NCBI GenBank assembly: GCA_015069695.1 | Contig: JADCRZ010000005.1 | Location: 1 to 64,000, forward strand | Direction: 5' to 3' | Length of the DNA: 64,000 nucleotides | Source of the DNA: Williamsia sp. | GTDB taxonomy: Bacteria > Bacteroidota > Bacteroidia > Chitinophagales > Chitinophagaceae | Shown here: piece by piece, positions 50,796 to 64,000 of the stretch | Numbering within the stretch: position 1 is the first letter of the stretch | How the letters are laid out: every line of letters begins with the position of its first letter | Made by a program: the position numbers and the translations under genes | Notes under the pieces: model-generated | Told to the model about the DNA's origin: nothing | The model's input: the letters and a program-made list of their open reading frames with translations, nothing else | The model's database searches: none

Positions 50796-52559
50796 TTAGA
50801 GAATTGTTTTTTGTTGCAGAGAGACGGTATAATTGTACTCCCCTTTGAATTTCCTCGCTTGTTCTTCGAACAGCGCTGATCTTTTTTTGAACTGCTTTCT
50901 TTGTTCTTCAAACAGGGCCTGCTGTTTCTTCCATTCAGCTTTTTGCTGTTGCCATTCCAGCGAAGCAGCCTGCCGGTTTTGCAGCTCATGCTGCTGTCTT
51001 ACCCGGATACTATCCGGTTCTTGCGACAGGGCCTTCTGCTCTTCTGACGCAGGCAGCCATATGTTGTCCGTTCCGGAAACCGGCTTAAGCCAGAGTTCAA
51101 GTACCGGTTGGCTCAATCCATACTTTCTTTGAGCATCCTGGCCTGCTGTTGCACCAATGCGCCTGATCGAAGCTTTCCTGATGGTGCCGTTTACTTCATC
51201 GGGCGTCATGCGCTTTCCGTCGACAAAAATGATACTTGTCGAATCGCCATGGGTGGCCCAGCCGAACTGGCTTACTACAAAAGATTTGCCATTGATAAGC
51301 TGGTATATTTTATCTGAATCCGCAGATGCTGAGGGAAACTTTCTTATGGTGTCAGTGTAATTCTTTTTTTTCTTAATTCCTGAATGAGCTTCTTTACGGC
51401 GTGGTAGAGTGTCTGACACATAACCGGCAAACGGGGAATTGCTGTTGGCCCCAGTTGATGAGGGAGTGGAAAAGGAGATGATTTGCGGCACAGGAACAGG
51501 TGGAGGTTCCATTTTTGAAATAAAGCTTACAGATGCGGTGGCTAAGATGCCCAACACAAGAAGAAATTTTTCTGCCCCGTTTAATCTATGATTCTCATGC
51601 GTGAGCATCCGGTTGATGCGCCGGAACAGGTCGTTTTTCCGGGAGATAAATGCCATGGCAGCACCTGCCTGCGTCAGGGAGCGTTCCTGAAAAGAAACAA
51701 GGGCTTCGAGATAAGTGTGTTTGTGAGGTAAATGCGCCAATACCATATCGTCACAGCAAGCTTCTCTTTCCCGCCGGATAAGAGCTGAAATCCACAGAAA
51801 AGCGGGGTTAAAGAAAAATACGGTTTCGGCAAGGCTTTGCAGAAGATTGACCAAGTAATCGTTGCGACGGATATGCGCCAGCTCATGCATCAGCACTGCT
51901 TTTACCTGCTCAGGGGGCAGGTTGGTAAACAAGCCTGCAGGCACCAAAATGGCCGATCTTAAAAATCCGACAACAATTGGTGCATGTACAAGGCGGGATT
52001 CTAGCAATACCGGCATCTTTCTGATACCCAATTTCCTACTGAGCTGTTCCGTCATTATAATCCAGTCTTTCCCCGGAGGAAAGACCCATAGCTTTCTGAG
52101 CTGCCTGATACGGTGTAAGCCGTAAGCAAGCTGCAGACATTTGAATGTAAAAAATATAAACCACAACAAAACTGCCAGGCCAGCATACCGGTTGCAGAAA
52201 GCAATGAGCTGTGCTGTCAAAGTGTTTTTTTTAAATGCTTGAAAAGAAGAACTTTCCGGGAGAGGAATGGTCGCTGCACTACGCTGGTTTACCGTTGTAT
52301 AGAAAGTCAGGTTTTTTGTGCGGCCGCTGAAGTGAGACAAGGCCAAAAAGAAGCTAACGCCTGCAATGAGTAAAAAGGAGGCAAAAAGGATAACCAGCAA
52401 ATTGTACCGCAGCGAAGCCTTTGCCTTCCGTGTACTGCTTATGATAACAGCAGCTGCAATCGCTGCCAACAGTCCTTGCCAGAATGAATGGATAAAGGTC
52501 CAGCACAGGGCTTTCGGAACAGGTTCGGGAATCCATTGATAGAGCAAGATAAAGGGCAT
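50796..52559 (-). CDS. BlaR1-type M56 membrane metallopeptidase with plug-like and coiled-coil tail
   Basis: The 587-residue protein has four helices in the M56 domain and the zinc site VLMHELAHIRRNDYL (His225, Glu226, His229), followed by REREACCDDMVLA with the third ligand. A helix at about 325 (LLVLGILATASVSFI) precedes an extracytoplasmic part. There, residues about 430-500 (IIFVDGKRMTPDEVNGTIRK, then ASIRRIGATAGQDAQRKYG) resemble the plug motif that occurs in Bacteroidetes BlaR1 proteins, and the last 70 residues are a Gln/Glu/Lys-rich coiled coil (EWQQQKAEWKKQQALFEEQR). It follows the BlaI gene after five bases. It probably senses an envelope signal and inactivates BlaI. Confidence 0.9.
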   Translation of the reverse strand: MPFILLYQWIPEPVPKALCWTFIHSFWQGLLAAIAAAVIISSTRKAKASLRYNLLVILFASFLLIAGVSFFLALSHFSGRTKNLTFYTTVNQRSAATIPLPESSSFQAFKKNTLTAQLIAFCNRYAGLAVLLWFIFFTFKCLQLAYGLHRIRQLRKLWVFPPGKDWIIMTEQLSRKLGIRKMPVLLESRLVHAPIVVGFLRSAILVPAGLFTNLPPEQVKAVLMHELAHIRRNDYLVNLLQSLAETVFFFNPAFLWISALIRREREACCDDMVLAHLPHKHTYLEALVSFQERSLTQAGAAMAFISRKNDLFRRINRMLTHENHRLNGAEKFLLVLGILATASVSFISKMEPPPVPVPQIISFSTPSSTGANSNSPFAGYVSDTLPRRKEAHSGIKKKKNYTDTIRKFPSASADSDKIYQLINGKSFVVSQFGWATHGDSTSIIFVDGKRMTPDEVNGTIRKASIRRIGATAGQDAQRKYGLSQPVLELWLKPVSGTDNIWLPASEEQKALSQEPDSIRVRQQHELQNRQAASLEWQQQKAEWKKQQALFEEQRKQFKKRSALFEEQARKFKGEYNYTVSLQQKTIL

Positions 52560-52564
52560 ATAAT

Positions 52565-52966
52565 TTATTTTTTGTCAAACTTGTCAAGTAGTTCGCGGAT
52601 TTGTTCCAGCTCTTTTTTAGAAGGTTTTTTCGAACCCAGTAACTGCATCATCAGTTTGGTGGCCGAACCATTGTACAGTGTATCCACGAACCGGTTCAGC
52701 AGAACAGTTTTGGTTTTACTTTCTTCATGGGCTGCACTGTAGACGTGCTTCATCTGGGACTCATCCCGTGTGAGTAGTCCCTTCTCAGCCATGATTTGCA
52801 TAAGCTTCAAGGTAGAAGTGTATTGCACTTCCCTTTTTGCCTCGTTCAACCGGTCATTTACAAATCGAACGGTTGAAGGCCCATGCTGCCAGAGTACCTG
52901 TAAAATTTCCAGCTCAGATTTGGTAGGCGTTATATCATTGAAACCTTCCTGCTTTTTTGACTTCAT
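52565..52966 (-). CDS. BlaI/MecI/CopY-family transcriptional repressor
   Basis: The 133-residue protein fits the family: LTPTKSELEILQVLW-like start (ITPTKSELEILQVLWQHGPS), VNDRLNEAKREVQYTSTLKL for the recognition helix, MQIMAEKGLLTRDESQMKHV for the wing, and a helical end TKLMMQLLGSKKPSKKELEQ. It is the first gene of the operon with the BlaR1 at 50796 and the hydrolase at 49309. Its sequence differs clearly from the second BlaI at 48634, and so does its upstream palindrome. Confidence 0.94.
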   Translation of the reverse strand: MKSKKQEGFNDITPTKSELEILQVLWQHGPSTVRFVNDRLNEAKREVQYTSTLKLMQIMAEKGLLTRDESQMKHVYSAAHEESKTKTVLLNRFVDTLYNGSATKLMMQLLGSKKPSKKELEQIRELLDKFDKK

Positions 52967-54938: not shown

Positions 54939-57383
54939 CTAACGGGACGATTGGATTGAATTGATCGTAACTTTCTTTGAAGGCAGACCCGGCGAATCTA
55001 TGGTGACCGTTATCTTTCCGGGCTTTCCGTCCGACTGGATATAGGCAAGCAATTGCCCGTTGTACATGGCTCGTTTGGTTGAGCTATAGTCTTCATGACT
55101 GGCGGGATCGCCGCTTTCCATACCCAGTAATCTGGCAGGTCCCTGTACGGTGAGGGTTATGGAGCTGGCCGCATCATATACCGGATTGCCTTTCTGGTCA
55201 TGAAGTGTGATCTCAATGTGTGCCAGCTCTTTTTTGCCTTCCCTGAACTGGGTTTTGTCTGCCACAACCCAAATTGTCGCGGGCCCGCCTGAGGTCATCA
55301 GGGTATCGCTGCTTACCTCTCCGTTGATATAACCCCTCGCAACCAACTTGCCGGGCTCGTAGGCAATGTTCCAGGAAAACCGGTTTGCGCCTGTATCCTG
55401 TTTTGATCTTTTCCCCAGCGACTTCCCATTTAAAAAGAGCTCGGCTTCCTGCGTGTTGGTGATGCAATCGACCCGGACGGTATCGCCGGCATTCCAATTC
55501 CATGTATGCTTCAACATGCGGCGGCCTCGTGGCGCCTGATCCCCTCTTTGCCGGGATGCTACCAGGTACATCACCGGTTTTTTTACCCACAGGGCCTGCC
55601 GGGCGTAAAATTCCGTCTTGGGAAAACCGGCCAGGTTTAATAAGCCGGCGCCGCTGCTTCTGACAGGCCAGCGCCCCGCTTCGCCCATAAAGTCAAAGCC
55701 CGTCCAGAGAAACTGGCCGAAAATGTTTTTACTGGTGTCTACCGCCGTCCAAGCCTCCCCACTTTTTCCGTTTTCACTTCCATAGATGATCCTGTCTGCA
55801 TACGTTTTGTGGTCATCCGCATAGCGATACTCCTGGTAGTTATAACCCACCACATCCAAATTCCCGGGATAGTCACTGGTATTGGACATGACCACTCCTG
55901 CGAGTGCAGCGGTAACCGGCCTGGTTGTATCACACCGCTTTGCTGCAGCGACCAGTTGTTTTGAGATCTCTCCCAGCCGCCTGGCCGGCGGATGATCAGG
56001 CAGATAGCCTTTGCCGTATATCTGCGGGTTGCGGCCGGTATTCAGGATCTCGTGTGTGTAGGGATCGTTGGGATAGTCAATCTCATTGCCAATGCTCCAC
56101 ATGATGATGGAAGGATGATTTTTATTGCGCCGGATCATATCGCTCAAATCTCTTTCCGCCCATTCCTGAAAATATTCATGATACCCGTCTTTTCCGGGTG
56201 TGCCCACATTCCAGCCTTCTATCCATTTGTTCTTACCCGCTTCCCATTCATCAAACGCTTCGTCCTGTACAAGGAAGCCCATTTCATCACAGAGTTCATA
56301 GAGGTAGTCCTGGTGCGGATAGTGGCTCATCCGGATCGCATTGCACCCGACTTCTTTCAACTTGACCAGCCTTCGTTGCCATACTTCGCGGGGTACCGCT
56401 GCACCCAGGGCGCCGGCATCATGGTGAATACACACACCTTTCAACTTCATATTCTCACCGTTGAGATAAAAACCGGTGTTTGCATCAAATCTTATAGACC
56501 GGATGCCTGCCTTCTCGCTGTATTCGTCGACCTTTCTGCCGTTCTGATAAACTGTGGTGGTCAAGGTATACAGGTTTGGTTGTTCAACCGACCAAAGCAG
56601 CGGCTGACTCACCATGAAAGAAAGCCTGGTGTCCTGGGTTGCTTTGCCGGCCAGGGAAGTTTTTTTCCTGGCCGAAGCGACTACCGTGGTACCCTGAAGC
56701 AGCCTGGCTTCCACAACTATATTGGCAGGGGTAGCCAGGGTATTGTTTATGGAGACCGTCACCTCTGCGGCAGCGTTTTGTTCAGATACCTGTGGGGTGA
56801 CAAAGCGGGTACCCCACAAGCCGATATGTACAGGATCTTTTGTTATCAGGTATACATTGCGATAGATGCCTGAACCCGGATACCAGCGAGAGTCGGCAAA
56901 TTTGGAATGATCCACCTTTACGGCAAATGTGTTTTTCCCTTTTTGCAGGTAAGGCGTCAGTTCATATTGAAAGGGGATGTAGCCATTGGGCCTCCTGCCA
57001 AGCAAATGACCGTTCAACCAGACTTCACTGTTCTTATAAACACCATCGAAATAAATAAAAATTTTTTTGCCGGGGTCCGGATTGTTTATTTGGAATATTT
57101 TCCTGTACCAGCCGATACCGCCGGGCAGAAAGCCGGTTCCGCTGGCCCATTGCTGGCTGAAAGGCCCTTCTATGCTCCAATCATGCGGCAACTCTACAGG
57201 CCTCCAGTCATGATCGTCAAAGTTTTCGGTTTGTCCGTCCGGAACATCCCCTTTGTGAAATTTCCAGTCATCGGTGAACAGGACCGTTTGTCTGGGGGAT
57301 TGAGATAAGCCTTGTAATGCTACACCCAGCAAGCATATGCAAACCAGACAGAATCTGTACGTGACGTTCGTTTTCGTTCGCAT
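54939..57383 (-). CDS. Glycoside hydrolase family 2 (beta-galactosidase-like), secreted
   Basis: The 814-residue protein has a signal peptide (RFCLVCICLLGVALQGLSQS), an N-terminal GH2 sugar-binding jelly roll (LPHDWSIEGPF, IFIYFDGVYKNSEVWLNGHL), an Ig-like domain, the TIM barrel with the acid/base Glu434 in MWSIGNEIDYPND and the nucleophile Glu537 in IIYGSENGKSG, and C-terminal Ig-like domains (DUF4982-like LKHTWNWNAGDTVRVDCITN; last one AHIEITLHDQKGNPVYDAAS). It should hydrolyse beta-galactosides or related glycans in the periplasm or at the surface. It is not part of a PUL here; no SusC/SusD pair is adjacent. Confidence 0.93.
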   Translation of the reverse strand: MRTKTNVTYRFCLVCICLLGVALQGLSQSPRQTVLFTDDWKFHKGDVPDGQTENFDDHDWRPVELPHDWSIEGPFSQQWASGTGFLPGGIGWYRKIFQINNPDPGKKIFIYFDGVYKNSEVWLNGHLLGRRPNGYIPFQYELTPYLQKGKNTFAVKVDHSKFADSRWYPGSGIYRNVYLITKDPVHIGLWGTRFVTPQVSEQNAAAEVTVSINNTLATPANIVVEARLLQGTTVVASARKKTSLAGKATQDTRLSFMVSQPLLWSVEQPNLYTLTTTVYQNGRKVDEYSEKAGIRSIRFDANTGFYLNGENMKLKGVCIHHDAGALGAAVPREVWQRRLVKLKEVGCNAIRMSHYPHQDYLYELCDEMGFLVQDEAFDEWEAGKNKWIEGWNVGTPGKDGYHEYFQEWAERDLSDMIRRNKNHPSIIMWSIGNEIDYPNDPYTHEILNTGRNPQIYGKGYLPDHPPARRLGEISKQLVAAAKRCDTTRPVTAALAGVVMSNTSDYPGNLDVVGYNYQEYRYADDHKTYADRIIYGSENGKSGEAWTAVDTSKNIFGQFLWTGFDFMGEAGRWPVRSSGAGLLNLAGFPKTEFYARQALWVKKPVMYLVASRQRGDQAPRGRRMLKHTWNWNAGDTVRVDCITNTQEAELFLNGKSLGKRSKQDTGANRFSWNIAYEPGKLVARGYINGEVSSDTLMTSGGPATIWVVADKTQFREGKKELAHIEITLHDQKGNPVYDAASSITLTVQGPARLLGMESGDPASHEDYSSTKRAMYNGQLLAYIQSDGKPGKITVTIDSPGLPSKKVTINSIQSSR

Positions 57384-57492: not shown

Positions 57493-58491
57493 TCACTGAA
57501 ACCGGTGTCCGATCCTGAGGGCCAGCTGATCGGGAATATGGTTGCTGTTGTAATGCTCATATTTCAACCCGATGTCGGTAGCATCACTGACGTGTAATCC
57601 TGCCGACGGCGAAAAAACAAACGAGGCTCCCCAATGAGCAGCTAATGCCGCACCTGCTTCACATCCTACATAAAACCGGTTGACGGTATGTATCCTGAGG
57701 CCGGCTTTTAAAGGTATTGCCGCCCGTGTAGTATGGTCGATTGTAACGCTTGGTGCGTTTATTTCATTAACCTGGAGGTAATAAAGCGGGTACGAATGGA
57801 AATAGTAGTTGATTCCCCCCGTGAGAGAAGCTTCCAGGTGGTTTGTTACGTGCTTGTAAATACTCATTTCGCCTCCTAGCACCATGTGTGCAAAGGGGGT
57901 AACTGTTATCCCTGGATTGATATTAACGCCCAGTTGCCAGCTTTTGATTTGAGCTTTTTGCTGTTGGACAATGGATTTCGCTGGTACGAGTCTGTAAGCG
58001 ATCCGCAGGGCAAGCGTTTTTGTAGCTGCGCTTCTGATGTAGTCTTCCCACTTCAAACTTATGTCAAGATGGTTATTTAAAGCCAGCCCGACGGATGGAG
58101 ACCAGACAAAGGAAGTACCCCATTGCTCAAAAGCAAAACCCACTCCTGCTTCCCCTCCCACATAGAATTTGTCTGATAAAAAGATCAATATACCTGCCTT
58201 TACCGGAATTACATTGTAAGGACTGCCATACTGCGGATATGTTGCAAAGTGGTCTTTTTCAAAGAAGTGGGTGAATCCTGCCGTCAGTGTGCCCGATACG
58301 GATCGTCCGAAGCGCTTTTGTAAGCTGAGGTCTCCTCCCAGTGAGTGCGTAAAAGGCCCGGTGGGGGAAACGCCGGGGTTTACGCCGGCACTGATTTGCC
58401 AGTTACTTGTACGCTGCCCATATGTAAACGCTGTAATAAGTAACATCCCTGCTGTAAACAAGGCTCTGAACATGGCTGTTGTTCGCATCAT
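57493..58491 (-). CDS. Outer-membrane barrel protein made of two repeated modules
   Basis: Started at one of the tandem ATGs at 58488-58491, the protein has a signal peptide (MMRTTAMFRALFTAGMLLIT, cleaved after YGQ). Two halves are clearly homologous: ISAGVNPGVSPTGPFTHSLG with FYVGGEAGVGFAFEQWGTSF, and LGVNINPGITVTPFAHMVLG with FYVGCEAGAALAAHWGASFV. Each ends in LALRIAYRL or LALRIGHRF. Alternating strands and the terminal aromatic residue indicate an outer-membrane beta-barrel. It lies 59 bases after the STN-domain gene, whose C-terminus contains a third copy of the module. Function unknown; probably the last gene of the sigma-factor operon. Confidence 0.77.
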   Translation of the reverse strand: MMRTTAMFRALFTAGMLLITAFTYGQRTSNWQISAGVNPGVSPTGPFTHSLGGDLSLQKRFGRSVSGTLTAGFTHFFEKDHFATYPQYGSPYNVIPVKAGILIFLSDKFYVGGEAGVGFAFEQWGTSFVWSPSVGLALNNHLDISLKWEDYIRSAATKTLALRIAYRLVPAKSIVQQQKAQIKSWQLGVNINPGITVTPFAHMVLGGEMSIYKHVTNHLEASLTGGINYYFHSYPLYYLQVNEINAPSVTIDHTTRAAIPLKAGLRIHTVNRFYVGCEAGAALAAHWGASFVFSPSAGLHVSDATDIGLKYEHYNSNHIPDQLALRIGHRFQ

Positions 58492-58550
58492 GGTAATCAT
58501 TTCCGGTAAAGACAACCAATGTGCCATTTACCCCTATCATCAAACGTACA

Positions 58551-60725
58551 TTACTGTTTGCTTAGCCTGATCCTGTACGCTAGCCGCAATGCAAATTGCT
58601 TATAAGTCCTTTGAATGGCGTAATCTTCAAACTTGATACCGGCATCCAGGCCGTTGGCAAAATCAAAACCTGCTGAAAGGGAATACAGGAAAGAGTAAGG
58701 GGAGAATCGCTGAACCGCAGAGGTTACTGCATTGCTGCTGCTGTTCACGCTCCGGTAGTATCTGGGTGAGCTGTACCCCGCTCCCAGCTCACCGCCGATA
58801 TACAAGCGCCGGCCTGTTTGCAGCCTTACACCGGCTTTTACAGGAATGGCTCTGTAAGAATGGTATACGAAATGATCGTATAGTCCGTTCACGTAACCAA
58901 GAGAGGAGATGGCATGATGGTTCAGTGTGAAATAAGTATACCCAGCAGACAGAGATGCGCGGAGGCCCGCTCCCATATCACGTTGTACGAACACCTCTAT
59001 GCCGTAAACCCGCTGGTGCACTTGATCCCACCCAATGCCGCCGGTTACAGCAACCCCCATGTACCATGCCCGGGAGTAATCAGTTGTTTTTTTGACAGGT
59101 TTAAAGACCGAATTGTAAGCTAGCCCAGCTTCCCATCCCATCCATCTTTGAACGGGATTGGACTTGGATCCAAACGGGGTCGGTTTGCTAAATCTTGATT
59201 GATACCCAGGCTGACTGCCTGTGTAAGAATACCGGTTGTACGTGGGGCCTGCAACCAGGCTGAGGTTCTTAAGAAGCTGTATATTGATGAGCAGCTTCAG
59301 CTGGGCCCAGCGGTCGTCCCACAAACCGGTATAAGCAAACTGGTAGTCTATTTCGGCAGACAGGTATGCCTTGCTGGTTAGTATGATGTCGTGGCCTATA
59401 CCCAGTCCGAAGCTGTACATTTTATCACGTTCTGACAGATTGATGCCGGTGAGCAGGCTGCTGTAAAAGCGGTGCGTACCTGTTTTTAAAGAGAGGTTTA
59501 TATTTGTCAGGCTGCCGGTGGACAGGGTTGCTTTGTAAAAACCATTGCCTATAATATTTATCAATCCGATGCTGGCGCCCCTAGAAGTGTCGGCCACGTT
59601 CACCAGGCCTACCTGGATGCCTTTGAGCATACGCGCTTGGTTGTGTAAAGCCGACAACTGTACACCCGACACCTGCGATGCTGCTGCATTGATGAATCCG
59701 GCCAGTTGCATGCCTTTCACCGTATCCAGGGCCCTGTTGTGCACACCTGCTGCCTGCAAACCGGTAACCTTGCCACCCACCAGGTTGAATACACCGGCAA
59801 GCTGTACATACCGGGCGTCTCTTCTATTGATGTTGAACAATCCGCCTGTCTCCAGGCCGTTTACCCCTGCCGTATATCCTCCGGCCAGGTTGAGAGAAAG
59901 CCTATTCACTATCTGAGGGCTGAACATTCCATGGGAGCTCAGGCCGGGAGCCAAAGAGACCTGGAAAGGACGTCTTGCAAAAAAGCCGGGTATGTTCACG
60001 CTTTGCATCATTTGCCTGGCGGATATAAACATCCGGCCGAGGTAGGTGCTTTCCACCCGGCCACCATCATTCTTTGCTTCTGTATAGGCTTCCCTGTTAT
60101 CGCGTGAACCGACGAGCACCGGTTGAAGAAAATGAATCGCCGTATCGCTGTATAATCTTTTGCTGGCTGTAATGTCGATGGAACCCGGATGACCGGTTGT
60201 AAATTTCAGCCTGAAGTAGCCATGTTCATCTGTTAAGGCTGATGTCAACCGGCGTTTTTCATACACACTGACGTTCATCAGGCGTTCACCCGTCCGTCCG
60301 TCTGTTACAAAACCGCTTATCGAACAGGCATGGTCATCACATGTCAGATCAACATTGATCAAGGAGAGAGGCGCCGGTGGCGCCAGCGTGGCGGGGGTGA
60401 TAATCACATAATTTTTCTGTTCTCCGTATTCGTATCTATCCCCCAGTAACTGAGCCAGCACCATACGTGCCGGCTGGTTGTTTGAAGCAATGCTGACCAG
60501 GCTGTCTTTTGATAATATATTGCCATTGTAGGAAAAGTAAAATCCACCTTTCTGACTGATCTTGCCCAGCGCATCTTCCAACCGCTCATGAGAGAGATGA
60601 ACAGAGATCCGCTTGTCGAGCAGCGCCTGCGCAGAAGCCCGGGCTGCAAAGCATGATACCAGAATAACGGTTTGCAGGAACAGTTTAACCGGGGTGATTG
60701 AACGGGAATCGATCATAACAGGCAT
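58551..60725 (-). CDS. STN-domain protein with peptidase-regulatory-like domain and beta-barrel
   Basis: The 724-residue protein has a signal peptide (KLFLQTVILVSCFAARASAQ), an STN domain at about 36-110 (ISVHLSHERLEDALGKISQK, FYFSYNGNILSK), and a carboxypeptidase-regulatory-like domain at about 130-200 (CSISGFVTDGRTGERLMNVS). From about 300 to 400 there are G-x-Q-x-AG-x-x-N repeats (VQLAGVFNLV, MQLAGFINAAASQVSGVQLS), as in LA_2272-type surface proteins, and then a barrel that ends with a module shared with the next gene (AIPVKAGVRLQTGRRLYIGG to FALRLAYRIRL). There is no TonB plug. STN domains pass signals from the outer membrane to a FecR partner, and the fecR gene is 8 bases upstream. Function inferred as a surface signal transducer. 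Confidence 0.83.
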   Translation of the reverse strand: MPVMIDSRSITPVKLFLQTVILVSCFAARASAQALLDKRISVHLSHERLEDALGKISQKGGFYFSYNGNILSKDSLVSIASNNQPARMVLAQLLGDRYEYGEQKNYVIITPATLAPPAPLSLINVDLTCDDHACSISGFVTDGRTGERLMNVSVYEKRRLTSALTDEHGYFRLKFTTGHPGSIDITASKRLYSDTAIHFLQPVLVGSRDNREAYTEAKNDGGRVESTYLGRMFISARQMMQSVNIPGFFARRPFQVSLAPGLSSHGMFSPQIVNRLSLNLAGGYTAGVNGLETGGLFNINRRDARYVQLAGVFNLVGGKVTGLQAAGVHNRALDTVKGMQLAGFINAAASQVSGVQLSALHNQARMLKGIQVGLVNVADTSRGASIGLINIIGNGFYKATLSTGSLTNINLSLKTGTHRFYSSLLTGINLSERDKMYSFGLGIGHDIILTSKAYLSAEIDYQFAYTGLWDDRWAQLKLLINIQLLKNLSLVAGPTYNRYSYTGSQPGYQSRFSKPTPFGSKSNPVQRWMGWEAGLAYNSVFKPVKKTTDYSRAWYMGVAVTGGIGWDQVHQRVYGIEVFVQRDMGAGLRASLSAGYTYFTLNHHAISSLGYVNGLYDHFVYHSYRAIPVKAGVRLQTGRRLYIGGELGAGYSSPRYYRSVNSSSNAVTSAVQRFSPYSFLYSLSAGFDFANGLDAGIKFEDYAIQRTYKQFALRLAYRIRLSKQ

Positions 60726-60733
60726 GCAAATGA

Positions 60734-61696
60734 TTACTGTAGAATGATTTGGTCTTGCGTCTTTTTCACTGTGATCCTGAATGTCCGGCTGATCACCTGC
60801 AAGATATCGTTCAAAGAGTCATTTTTAAATATGATGTTCAGAGGCAGGTTCCTGAGCGACGGCCTTCCAATGATGATATGGCTGTCATAGGCTTCATTGA
60901 GCACTTCCACCATCCGCCACAGGGGTGTGTCATCTGCAATAAATTCTCTGGTGCGGTAATAAGCGTATAGCTGATCCCGGGTCCTTTCTTTGATTAATTC
61001 GTTTGTGTTGTGTTTTACAGTTACTTTTTGGCCGGGAACCACTGCAGTCTGATTGCCGTTTGTGCTCACCTGTACGGTTCCTGTTTCCACGATCACCTCT
61101 ACATCACCGTCCTTGTTCTTCACATTGAAAGAAGTGCCTGTCACTTTGATGGTTATGGTTCCTGCCTCTATGAGAAAAGGATTGGCTTTATCAGGCGCGA
61201 TGTTAAAAAAAACCTCCCCGTTATGCAGTGATACATGGCGCTGATGAGACGCAAATCTTCCGGGAACTGTAACGGTTGTCTTTCTGTTCAGAATTAGGAC
61301 TGAACCGTCCGGCAAAGTGTCTGTCTTTACAGCTTGCCGGGTTGATAAGAGGACGTCCGGTACGGATCGCTGCGCCATATAAAACCAGGTTGCTCCAACG
61401 AGAAGAAGTACAGCCGCAGCAATCTTTGTCCACGCGTTCCTGTGAGGAGAGATGGTGATTTCGATCTGTTGGGCTTTTCGTTCCCCGGCTTTTTGCTTTA
61501 GCCTGGCCAGGGAAGCGAGGGCATCGGGCTCGCCATTAAATTTCAGCTGCCTGCTTGTTTCCCAGATCTGCTGGAACTGCTGATAACGGGCCTCGTGAGC
61601 CCTGTCTTCAGCCCGCCATTTTTCTACCCTTGCTGCTTCTTCGGCCGAAGCTTCTCCAAGCAGGTAACTGATCAGCGTGTCATCCTTCATTTCCAT
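60734..61696 (-). CDS. FecR-family anti-sigma factor (FecR/DUF4974)
   Basis: Started at the ATG 61696 (MEMKDDTLISYLLGEASAEE), the protein has a cytoplasmic anti-sigma part, a membrane helix (WTKIAAAVLLLVGATWFYMA), the FecR domain (TRQAVKTDTLPDGSVLILNR, HVSLHNGEVFFNIAPDKANP, TGTSFNVKNKDGDVEVIVET, TVQVSTNGNQTAVVPGQKV) and a C-terminal DUF4974/STN-like domain (PLWRMVEVLNEAYDSHIIIG, LNIIFKNDSLNDILQVISRT). About 320 residues, complete. It should hold the ECF sigma factor until signalled by an STN partner. The sigma gene ends 17 bases upstream. Confidence 0.94.
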   Translation of the reverse strand: MEMKDDTLISYLLGEASAEEAARVEKWRAEDRAHEARYQQFQQIWETSRQLKFNGEPDALASLARLKQKAGERKAQQIEITISPHRNAWTKIAAAVLLLVGATWFYMAQRSVPDVLLSTRQAVKTDTLPDGSVLILNRKTTVTVPGRFASHQRHVSLHNGEVFFNIAPDKANPFLIEAGTITIKVTGTSFNVKNKDGDVEVIVETGTVQVSTNGNQTAVVPGQKVTVKHNTNELIKERTRDQLYAYYRTREFIADDTPLWRMVEVLNEAYDSHIIIGRPSLRNLPLNIIFKNDSLNDILQVISRTFRITVKKTQDQIILQ

Positions 61697-61712
61697 ATAC
61701 AAGTATTTACTT

Positions 61713-62294
61713 TCAAGACATCATGCGTATGAACAGCAAAAGAGTCGGTATAAGCAGACCGCCGAGATGTTCGCGGATTCTTTTGAGCGCCTTGCTGATC
61801 TGGTTTTCCACTGTTTTTACAGACAAACCCAGTTGACTTGCAATCTCCGCATATTTAAGTTCTTCATACCGGCTCAGTTGAAAGATCGTACGGCATTGTT
61901 CCGGCAGCCTGTTCATTGCTTCTCTCAGCCGGTGTTCCAATTCTCTGTAATCCAGGTTAGAAGAAGGAGTTGCCGGTTGCCGGTTTGAGGTATATGCCGC
62001 GTGCGCCTGGTAATCCTGTTTCACCTTCTGGTGCTTCAGGTGGTTGAGGCTTTCATTGTTCACCGAACGGTACAGGTAGGCTTTCAGGGATGTATGAATG
62101 GCAACGGGCTCTTTCTTTTCAAGTATCCTTAAAAAGACCTGGTGGATCATTTCTTCTGCCAGCGACTCGTCGTTAAGGATGGTAAAAGCATATTGATACA
62201 ATCCGGTGTAATTTTCAAGATATATCCTGTCCCAATCATATGTATCTCCGCCGGGATGTGGCCCGGGATACCTGGAGTCATTATCCGTCTGCAA
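61713..62294 (-). CDS. ECF-type RNA polymerase sigma factor
   Basis: The 193-residue protein has sigma region 2 (YTGLYQYAFTILNDESLAEE, MIHQVFLRILEKKEPV, LKAYLYRSVNNESLNHLKHQ) and region 4 (MNRLPEQCRTIFQLSRYEEL, KYAEIASQLGLSVKTVENQI, SKALKRIREHL). It lacks region 1.1 and 3, as ECF factors do. The final hydrophobic tail (LLIPTLLLFIRMMS) is common in Bacteroidetes FecI-like factors. It heads the operon with fecR and the STN-domain protein, which it probably transcribes itself when released. Confidence 0.95.
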   Translation of the reverse strand: MQTDNDSRYPGPHPGGDTYDWDRIYLENYTGLYQYAFTILNDESLAEEMIHQVFLRILEKKEPVAIHTSLKAYLYRSVNNESLNHLKHQKVKQDYQAHAAYTSNRQPATPSSNLDYRELEHRLREAMNRLPEQCRTIFQLSRYEELKYAEIASQLGLSVKTVENQISKALKRIREHLGGLLIPTLLLFIRMMS

Positions 62295-62337: not shown

Positions 62338-62571
62338 TTGATACAGACAACTGAGACCAAGCTTAACCCCTATTTTGCCAATAAACAAATCAAAAATACA
62401 GAGATCAAAAAAGGGTTCACGCTAAACTCATCTGCAAAAGACGCTGTTTGTGTCATGAAGGAAGCCCTGGAGGAACAAAAAAGAAAAAGTTTTCCCCTTA
62501 GCCGAACGACGGCGGAACCCGGTTCAGACAAAAGCACCCGGAGTGTTATGTCCCAAGTGTTTTGTTATTGA
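62338..62571 (+). CDS. Doubtful small open frame
   Basis: A 77-codon frame (KLNPYFANKQIKNTEIKKGF, SAKDAVCVMKEALEEQKRKS) is divergent from the sigma gene. The first 55 residues look protein-like and helical, the end less so. No family recognised and no clear ribosome site. It may be a remnant. Confidence 0.2.
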   Translation: MIQTTETKLNPYFANKQIKNTEIKKGFTLNSSAKDAVCVMKEALEEQKRKSFPLSRTTAEPGSDKSTRSVMSQVFCY

Positions 62572-62839: not shown

Positions 62840-64000
62840 TCATTGGTTTACATCTTTCTTAAACATAGATAGATATGACGCAAACTGTTTCTTCATGTCG
62901 TTTTCAAAACTATCAAGATAGTTTTCTGTAGTCTTGACATCCGTATGCCCTAACGCCTCTGATATGAACTCAGTGCTGGCACCAGACCGTTTTAGAACCG
63001 TGGAAAAGGAATGCCTGGCTGTATAAGTGGTAATCTTGAACGGAATGTTCAGCTTCTCAGCTATCCGCTTCGTCCACTTGTTTATGTTCTTAATGAACTG
63101 ATGAATAAGCTCTTCCTTTCTTATAGCAGATATACTCGGTTCCAGGATGGGAAAGATATACTCATCTCCGGTTTTAGCACGATTGCCTCTCTTTTCAATT
63201 ATCTCACGCATCTCTGAGGTAACGTAAATAGTGATAGGCTTGGGGCTTGACCTTCTCGTCCGTTCTGTCTTGGCCCTCTCAAATACAATGAAATCACCCT
63301 GCAGGTTCTTGTACTTTAGCAGCGCCACATCTTTCATGTTGATGCCATTGCCAAAGTAACTGAACAGCCAGAAATCTTTAGCTTTCGCCTCTCCTTCATT
63401 AGACTCGTCCGGTTCGTAATAATAAAATTTACTAATGTCATCCATGGAAAGCGCTTTTTTAATATTGCGTCCTGTAGGTATCTGGTACTTTTTCTTTCCA
63501 AATGGATAATTTTCTTTGGAAATAATGCCCCGTTCTATGGCTTCATTCATCACTGCTCTAAGAGCTCTGGCATAGATTCCAACAGTTGTTTTTGAAGCAT
63601 TCTTTATACCGGTCATCCACTGTTCATAGGCATGTAGAAAATCAGGTGTAATGCTTTCCAAAAGGAGGTTGTCTTTGAATGAAAGCAGGCTGTTGATACT
63701 GCATTGGTAGCTGGATGCAGTTCCTATCCGCTCCTGCCTGGTGAGTTCATCGATTTGTTGCTGAAACAGCGTGGAAAGGGAACCTTTACCTGTGGATTTC
63801 TGAAAGAAGCGCTTTTCAAATGAAGTAAAGCTGAACGGTTTAAGTGTTTTGATGATCTCTACTGCTTTTGCCTGGAAGAAGCCCAGATCGTTGTTGATGG
63901 CAGTACTTTCCCGACTGAGCCGTTTGGATGAGAGGGAGTCGAACCCAGCTTTTGTCAGGTCGATACCGGTAGCATAATACTTGGCGGTAGTGATATGATT
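62840..64000 (-). CDS. Tyrosine recombinase (Bacteroidetes-type integrase), N-terminus beyond window
   Basis: The frame is open from the window edge. It shows the arm-binding domain end (ATGIDLTKAGFDSLSSKRLS), a SAM-like core-binding domain (SSYQCSINSLLSFKDNLLLE, SITPDFLHAYEQWM) and the catalytic domain with TARHSFSTVLKRSG (His and Arg), EALGHTDVKTTENYLDSF (second His and Tyr nucleophile) and FERAKTERTRR (Lys region). The first catalytic Arg position, in FSYFGNGINMKDVALLKY, appears to be non-Arg, as in several Bacteroidetes integrases. By comparison with the decayed copy at 8.9-9.3 kb, about 28 N-terminal residues are missing. It belongs to an element extending to the right or to one already lost on the left. 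Confidence 0.92.
   Translation of the reverse strand, partial: NHITTAKYYATGIDLTKAGFDSLSSKRLSRESTAINNDLGFFQAKAVEIIKTLKPFSFTSFEKRFFQKSTGKGSLSTLFQQQIDELTRQERIGTASSYQCSINSLLSFKDNLLLESITPDFLHAYEQWMTGIKNASKTTVGIYARALRAVMNEAIERGIISKENYPFGKKKYQIPTGRNIKKALSMDDISKFYYYEPDESNEGEAKAKDFWLFSYFGNGINMKDVALLKYKNLQGDFIVFERAKTERTRRSSPKPITIYVTSEMREIIEKRGNRAKTGDEYIFPILEPSISAIRKEELIHQFIKNINKWTKRIAEKLNIPFKITTYTARHSFSTVLKRSGASTEFISEALGHTDVKTTENYLDSFENDMKKQFASYLSMFKKDVNQ

Follow-up and report, generated by a model that had tools for sequence, protein, structure and literature searches.

A plug-less STN-barrel protein as the predicted sensor of an ECF sigma/FecR operon in Bacteroidota

Introduction

The cell-surface signalling systems FecI/FecR/FecA, PupI/PupR/PupB and FoxI/FoxR/FoxA each combine an extracytoplasmic function (ECF) sigma factor, a FecR-type regulator with a C-terminal STN-like domain, and an STN domain carried by an outer-membrane protein. 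The same combination is found in the operon described here, which occupies positions 57493-62294 of a 64,000-nucleotide stretch (the window) at the start of contig JADCRZ010000005.1 from Williamsia sp. (assembly GCA_015069695.1; Bacteroidota, Chitinophagaceae). FecA, PupB and FoxA are plugged 22-stranded transporters, whereas the outer-membrane member of the family described here has no detectable plug and is modelled with one or two 8-stranded barrels. The STN domain of PupB is reported to stabilise PupR (PMC7186176), and the signalling domain of FoxA to shield FoxR from proteolysis when the signal is absent (PMC11637429). Separating signalling from transport in FecA-type systems is described in a review as experimentally difficult (PMC9249621).

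Three further systems invite comparison. SusC-type operons of Bacteroidota share the gene order and an N-terminus made of STN and a carboxypeptidase-regulatory-like (CpdR) domain, but SusC has a plug and a large barrel, and the SusC-type FecRs that we sampled fall outside the clade formed by the FecRs of the present family. VreA, from the VreA/VreI/VreR system (PUMA3) of P. aeruginosa, is described as a mostly soluble periplasmic protein with an STN and a TolA-like part and without a barrel (PMC2729926); its STN component is, as here, not a TonB-dependent transporter, whereas the C-terminal domains of the window protein model as outer-membrane barrels and not as TolA-like. The Dma/Das system of B. 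thetaiotaomicron is reported to use dual membrane-spanning anti-sigma factors composed of an N-terminal anti-sigma part, a helix, a tether and a barrel, and mutation of dma1 or dma2 is reported to raise vesicle production (PMC13088901). There too, an outer-membrane barrel protein controls an ECF sigma factor and no transporter is involved, and proteins with that single-chain layout recur in a bacterial family labelled f3 below; in the window, however, the STN-barrel protein and FecR are two separate genes, and the likeness to Dma is one of layout. A Parabacteroides gene has appeared in print as 'STN and carboxypeptidase regulatory-like domain-containing protein' (PMC12893687). We found no published description of the family in the open-licence literature searched.

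Results

The operon lies on the reverse strand and begins with a FecI-like ECF sigma factor gene (61713-62294, 193 amino acids (aa)), whose product matches TIGR02985 (Sig70_bacteroi1, E 2e-46) and, in Pfam, Sigma70_r2 and Sigma70_r4. The gene for the FecR-type anti-sigma regulator (60734-61702, 322 aa; Pfam FecR E 2e-19, FecR_C E 2e-9) comes next, followed by that of a 724-aa protein, hereafter the sensor (58551-60725), and by an open reading frame (ORF) for a second barrel protein, bar2 (57493-58527, 344 aa as listed). This is the order given in a preliminary description of the window, which had also noted tight spacing; the 8 nucleotides (nt) between FecR and the sensor gene agree with it, but the 17 bases given between sigma and FecR become 10 nt if FecR starts at its first possible codon, a TTG, and 16 nt if it starts at the next ATG.

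We modelled the sensor with AlphaFold2 on 61 aligned sequences (mean pLDDT 81.3) and compared folds by VIA-align. A signal peptide is predicted at residues 1-32 (60630-60725; ...ASA/QA), with a hydrophobic stretch at 9-28, a modelled helix at 12-27 and the cleavage site placed by eye. It is followed by an STN domain (residues 38-118, 60372-60614), which resembles the signalling domain of PupB in its complex with PupR (6ovm_B; Z 9.0, 2.5 Å over 78 residues) and that of FecA (2d1u; Z 8.0, 2.2 Å over 73). Since the Pfam STN model matches its relatives (12 of 13 aligned family members at E<=0.1 and 48 of 61 at E<=0.01) and the modelled fold agrees, we assign the window protein to this domain family as well; two residues of the domain, F64 and Y66, are invariant across the 61 sequences. 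A transthyretin-like CpdR domain then spans residues ~118-202 (60120-60371; 5aq0_B, Z 8.4). It had been recognised in the preliminary description, and while its Pfam CarbopepD_reg_2 match in the window protein (E 5e-5) stays under the curated cut-off, CpdR is matched in all 61 aligned members at E<=0.01.

Residues 276-393 (59547-59900) hold a repeat whose spacings are 16 residues or multiples of 16, with occasional 15s, in nearly all of the 61 sequences. Modelled separately (mean pLDDT 75.3, pTM 0.68), this piece looks like a β-solenoid, and its match to bactofilin (6rib_A; Z 9.1, 1.7 Å over 90) is taken as solenoid likeness only. Matches by VIA-align to helices of the LpxA/GlmU type were discounted, with root-mean-square deviations near 10 Å. 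In NCBIfam, the VC2662 family (NF047437, 24.9 bits of a curated 140) and the LA_2272 repeat (NF047436, 14.7 bits of a curated 25) show a weak likeness to the repeats, well under their cut-offs. The solenoid-holding stretch is 198 residues long in the window protein and its six closest relatives and 183-264 in the others. The N-terminus of an 8-stranded barrel is periplasmic, which makes a rod in the periplasm more likely for the modelled solenoid than a place on the cell surface. The repeats seen in the preliminary description are thus real, but their supposed place on the surface is doubtful because they model as a β-solenoid preceding the barrel.

The remainder of the chain models as small barrels, as proposed, but there are two of them. 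Barrel 1 (residues ~394-540, 59106-59546) resembles 6x9z (Z 15.2, 1.7 Å over 111), and barrel 2, or tail barrel (residues 550-721, 58563-59078), resembles PagL (2erv_B; Z 15.7, 1.8 Å over 125) and OmpA (1qjp, Z 15.2). OmpA-like 8-stranded barrels contain no pore wide enough for nutrient import. Furthermore, the Pfam plug domain (PF07715) is not matched in the window protein, nor in any of 13 aligned members at E<=0.1 or 61 at E<=0.01, in agreement with the absence of a plug noted before. A strict TonB-box pattern occurs in none of 81 sensors, yet it finds only 1 of 37 and 2 of 13 true receptors, so this pattern is uninformative.

Relatives were searched for with the repeat-barrel part only, STN excluded, and the best 80 of 385 confirmed matches were kept; all counts out of 80 describe this best-matching part of the family. 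These loci come from Pedobacter, Mucilaginibacter, Chitinophagaceae and some Flavobacterium. A family STN model matches all 80 focal ORFs and plug models match none, and in 75 of the 80 the two genes immediately upstream, in the same orientation, are those for FecR and the sigma factor. This arrangement is missing from L069, L075 (contig edge) and three Flavobacterium loci, L124, L131 and L133, whose sensors retain STN without adjoining sigma-FecR genes. The main alignment consists of the window sequence and 60 of the 80 loci, a second alignment holds 56 of these 61 sequences, and the sensor tree divides the 60 aligned loci into halves of 30, one mostly from Chitinophagaceae and one holding the window's relatives. 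With or without STN, the repeat-barrel model matches in 146 of 394 genomes of the window's family (E<=0.001) and in 83 of 395 genomes of the phylum (E<=1e-10). The sensor is therefore a member of a recurrent Bacteroidota family. A further family of the phylum, f43, is also rich in repeat-barrel proteins that lack STN (L162-L164, L166, L168-L175); these are ~420-525 aa long and their N-terminus is hydrophobic. The window genome itself encodes one STN-solenoid-barrel protein, its remaining repeat-barrel matches being the two halves of bar2, and it contains 13 FecR loci.

In a tree of 93 FecRs, the 76 sensor-linked ones (75 and that of the window) form one clade (99/99, stem 0.97), outside which fall 16 true non-partner FecRs, SusC-type ones included; the remaining row (L048) has the same sequence as the sensor-linked L099. 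The sensor and its FecR seem, from these sequences, to have been inherited together. The earlier suggestion of a distinct class that senses without transporting fits these data, because 75 of 80 operons have a plug-less STN-barrel as their third member and the FecRs form a clade of their own; the transport side of that suggestion is less straightforward in one half of the family, as discussed below.

A gapped-word search upstream of the sigma factor genes found a promoter-like motif, TAGGGG-N14-GTTGT. The window contains exactly two matches, both on the reverse strand and both at expected promoters: one with a 15-nt gap (62347-62372) lies 52 nt before the sigma start codon, and one with a 14-nt gap (58512-58536) precedes bar2. 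Shuffled windows contain 0.10 matches on average, and 1 in 100 reaches two. The first start codon of the bar2 ORF falls within the second match, so the true start is probably near 58488. We then counted, by gene class in the relatives, the exact matches that have gaps of 13-16 and fall between -200 and +90 relative to an ORF start, excluding ORFs too near the locus end and, in the class of other ORFs, those under 150 aa. The motif precedes the sigma gene in 24 of 75 cases, the gene for an STN-less twin of the sensor (described below) in 24 of 38, and a same-strand TonB receptor gene within 5 kb in 12 of 22; for DUF2807 genes the count is 3 of 44 and for bar2-like ORFs 1 of 8. It stands before none of the 75 adjacent FecR genes, the 79 sensors or the 21 other TonB receptors, and before 1 of 804 other ORFs. 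The backward pattern, as a control, precedes 1 of the 804 other ORFs and no member of the remaining classes. If one mismatch per half is tolerated, 34 of 75 sigma genes are preceded by the motif, as are 31 of 38 twins. A scan of both strands of the 80 loci (1.58 Mb) finds 70 exact copies, every one with a gap of 14 and none off the operon strand; the backward control gives 3. We infer that the local sigma factor reads this motif. The whole window genome (7.66 Mb) has 4 matches against 18 for the backward pattern, the two outside the window lying one within coding sequence and one upstream of a rhamnosidase-like gene. This last copy (L179:1501-1526, contig C146), ~134 bp before a gene resembling an alpha-L-rhamnosidase, could be chance.

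The genes that carry the motif include some that resemble the sensor. In 38 of 80 loci there is an STN-less twin, which shares the repeats and the barrel of the sensor and has a median ORF length of 382 aa. In a tree of all 38 twins and 49 of 81 STN proteins, 36 twins form one old clade and those of L099 and L118 fall within the STN clade. The best tree contains two changes, and 0% of 200 bootstrap trees contain one, although the strongly supported branches alone force one change only. In the window's subfamily, the tail barrel is an addition to the sensor, and the gene that bears the motif encodes two barrels of this kind. Indeed, bar2, the second barrel protein of the preliminary description, consists of two homologous halves (mutual BLASTP match, E 2e-30), each in turn homologous to sensor barrel 2 (BLASTP E 2e-18 and 9e-18), and its Pfam OMP_b-brl score is 20.9 bits, under the cut-off of 28.7. 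A bar2 homologue lies downstream in 5 of the 6 closest relatives. With the window uncounted, bar2 is present in 6 of the 7 loci whose sensor has the tail barrel and in 1 of the 73 others (Fisher p 1.6e-7, a value that is too small because six of the seven tail-bearing loci are one clade). Twins outside the main clade, and the pairing of tail barrel and bar2 in the window's subfamily, suggest that twin formation may have happened more than once. A DUF2807 protein of P. gingivalis is reportedly an adhesin (PMC10949514).

The same repeat-barrel is found in 10 of 16 genomes of f3, a family in the same order as the window genome. All eight chains there with a complete N-terminus (G037, G813, G810, G814, G817, G815, G819 and G818) share one layout, judged by hydropathy and the repeat-barrel model: the N-terminal part is short, a hydrophobic stretch sets in at about residues 48-55, and a long tether then leads to the repeat-barrel. 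None contains STN, and Pfam finds nothing in the f3 chain at E<=1, its neighbours being sigma-70 and DUF2807 genes. The sigma gene is directly upstream in 7 of the 8 loci (unseen for G814), and DUF2807 is further upstream in 5 of 8, some loci being too short to show it (examples with the order DUF2807, sigma, single chain are L055:6358-10019 and L209-L219). The TAGGGG motif is absent from the f3 loci examined. The f3 chains are putative single-chain anti-sigma proteins, Dma-like in layout. Because the same module is wired in a single chain next to a sigma gene, sensing seems to be the task of the barrel module itself.

The window sensor and FecR each group with six Sphingobacteriaceae sequences (100/100), although the window genome belongs to the Chitinophagaceae. 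A tyrosine recombinase gene (Phage_int_SAM_5, Phage_integrase) at 62840-64000 lies 0.5 kb upstream of the operon; the gene is complete, with 414 aa, in L185:2841-4085. As the closest kin are Sphingobacteriaceae and a recombinase adjoins the operon, a horizontal arrival fits, and the operon was likely gained in this way. On the other side, ~110 bp downstream of bar2 and on the operon strand, lies a gene for a family 2 glycoside hydrolase (54939-57383), and a penicillinase-repressor and BlaR1/M56 peptidase pair is located at 50796-52966.

Discussion

By its sequence, the operon appears to work like a cell-surface signalling system whose sensor is not a TonB-dependent transducer, an arrangement for which the literature searched gave no description. 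We think it probable that this is a circuit in which sensing is split from transport and whose outputs resemble the sensor. One or two small 8-stranded barrels would anchor the sensor in the outer membrane, and its STN domain would be presented in the periplasm on the transthyretin-like domain and the β-solenoid rod. By analogy with PupB on PupR and FoxA on FoxR, STN would dock on the C-terminal domain of its dedicated FecR, and this contact might shield FecR from proteolysis. A change in the state of the barrel, through a ligand, a partner or a failure of assembly, would then lead to FecR cleavage and sigma release, and the freed sigma factor would transcribe its own operon and adjacent outer-membrane genes. 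The predicted output in the window is the double-barrel protein; elsewhere the outputs would be the STN-less twin and the DUF2807 lipoprotein, joined in Chitinophagaceae by a TonB receptor with a plug. The sensor itself would presumably not transport.

Several observations weigh against this interpretation. The sensor model is of middling global confidence (pTM 0.53), Foldseek with the whole chain returns mostly generic barrels with mostly low TM-scores, and the repeat domain alone gives no Foldseek match with E<=0.001. Pfam STN has no match in the window protein itself at E<=1, so that the STN domain recognised in the preliminary description is borne out by fold and by relatives but missed by Pfam in this member. 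The FecR tree is midpoint-rooted and has several very long outgroup branches, and the loci come from related species, so that their counts are not independent. The exact motif is not found before 51 of 75 sigma genes, and its relaxed form, with one mismatch per half, also precedes some distant TonB receptors (6 of 21) and other ORFs (16 of 804). In nine other genomes there are 22 matches, 11 of them in sensor loci, against 14 for the backward control (one genome, G803, has none), so distant targets of the motif are indistinguishable from chance. Nine of 80 loci have no twin, bar2, DUF2807 or same-strand TonB receptor within 6 kb. Finally, 24 of 80 loci have a TonB receptor on the same strand within 3.5 kb, and 42 of 80 contain a plug ORF somewhere in the locus (23 of 30 in the Chitinophagaceae half, 9 of 30 in the other), so coupling to transport is possible at such loci.

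A variant that is compatible with the proposed split of sensing from transport, and that we regard as possible but somewhat doubtful, is that the protein senses outer-membrane assembly or integrity and has no external ligand. The inserted sensor would protect FecR, whereas failed insertion would lead to FecR degradation, and sigma would restore the barrel proteins and the lipoprotein. The reported protection of FoxR by STN binding (PMC11637429) and stabilisation of PupR (PMC7186176) are in line with this, as are outputs that resemble the sensor (a twin in 38 of 80 loci; tail barrel with bar2 in 6 of 7 loci versus 1 of 73) and the existence of a single-chain Dma-like form, given that dma1 and dma2 mutants are reported to vesiculate more (PMC13088901). 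Extracellular loops could, however, bind a ligand, and a TonB receptor as output suits nutrient sensing better.

An extension of the proposed circuit, offered tentatively and with somewhat less confidence than the assembly variant, is a general class of transport-free surface signalling in Bacteroidota. Its sensor would be a signalling copy of the outer-membrane barrel that the sigma factor produces, an STN-tagged twin that monitors the state of the untagged protein, with barrel production set by feedback through FecR. Such a class might be wired in two ways, through STN-FecR contact or by direct fusion of the barrel to an anti-sigma-like membrane chain as in f3.

In our estimate it is unlikely that a neighbouring TonB receptor binds and moves the ligand while the STN-barrel, as its accessory subunit, only relays the signal, with signalling still coupled to transport. 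In many Chitinophagaceae loci the sensor is indeed followed by a ~780-aa CpdR-plug-barrel receptor without detected STN. A same-strand receptor lies within 3.5 kb in 20 of 30 loci of the mostly-Chitinophagaceae half (21 with L136, whose receptor is matched by the earlier plug model and not by the iteratively rebuilt one), and the motif stands at 12 of 22 receptors. The preliminary idea of sensing without transport needs qualifying in that half. In the half with the window's relatives, by contrast, a same-strand TonB receptor within 3.5 kb is found in 1 of 30 loci and any plug ORF in 9 of 30; the window operon has no receptor, and the window genome has no close orthologue of one (best match 25% identity over query residues 12-294). 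A neighbouring TonB receptor that could be under the same FecR is thus seen in part of the relatives and not in the window. Furthermore, all eight neighbouring receptors scanned match CpdR and plug (3 over the curated cut-off) and none matches STN at E<=0.01, nor do the labelled receptors of the 80 loci match the STN model. Because STN is undetected in them, these receptors would not be the STN partner of FecR, and because 12 of 22 bear the promoter-like motif, a transporter can be an output of the circuit. The plug-bearing neighbours, from their sequences, look like outputs and not like the partner of FecR. Nine large unlabelled ORFs in the loci have no Pfam Plug match at E<=0.001, and one of them (L062) is an OMP_b-brl_4/TonB_dep_Rec barrel protein. 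Elsewhere in the window genome, on contig C156 (L057:5680-9310), the gene after FecR encodes a protein of 860 aa that has CpdR and matches the plug model weakly (18.1 bits, under the cut-off); this locus also gives a weak match in the STN search.

That STN is a leftover on a merely structural or adhesive outer-membrane protein cotranscribed with sigma-FecR would suit the missing Pfam match in the window protein and the three Flavobacterium loci without adjacent sigma-FecR, but is very improbable given the STN model matches in 80 of 80 loci, the invariant F64 and Y66 in 61 sequences and the co-inherited FecR clade.

If the proposed circuit is correct, a natural receptor without a plug or room for a pore would separate signalling from transport, making the needs of the STN-FecR contact testable. 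It would further account for the control of surface barrels, of a DUF2807 lipoprotein and sometimes of a TonB receptor in many Pedobacter, Mucilaginibacter and Chitinophagaceae, and would link FecR signalling with the single-chain layout of Dma.

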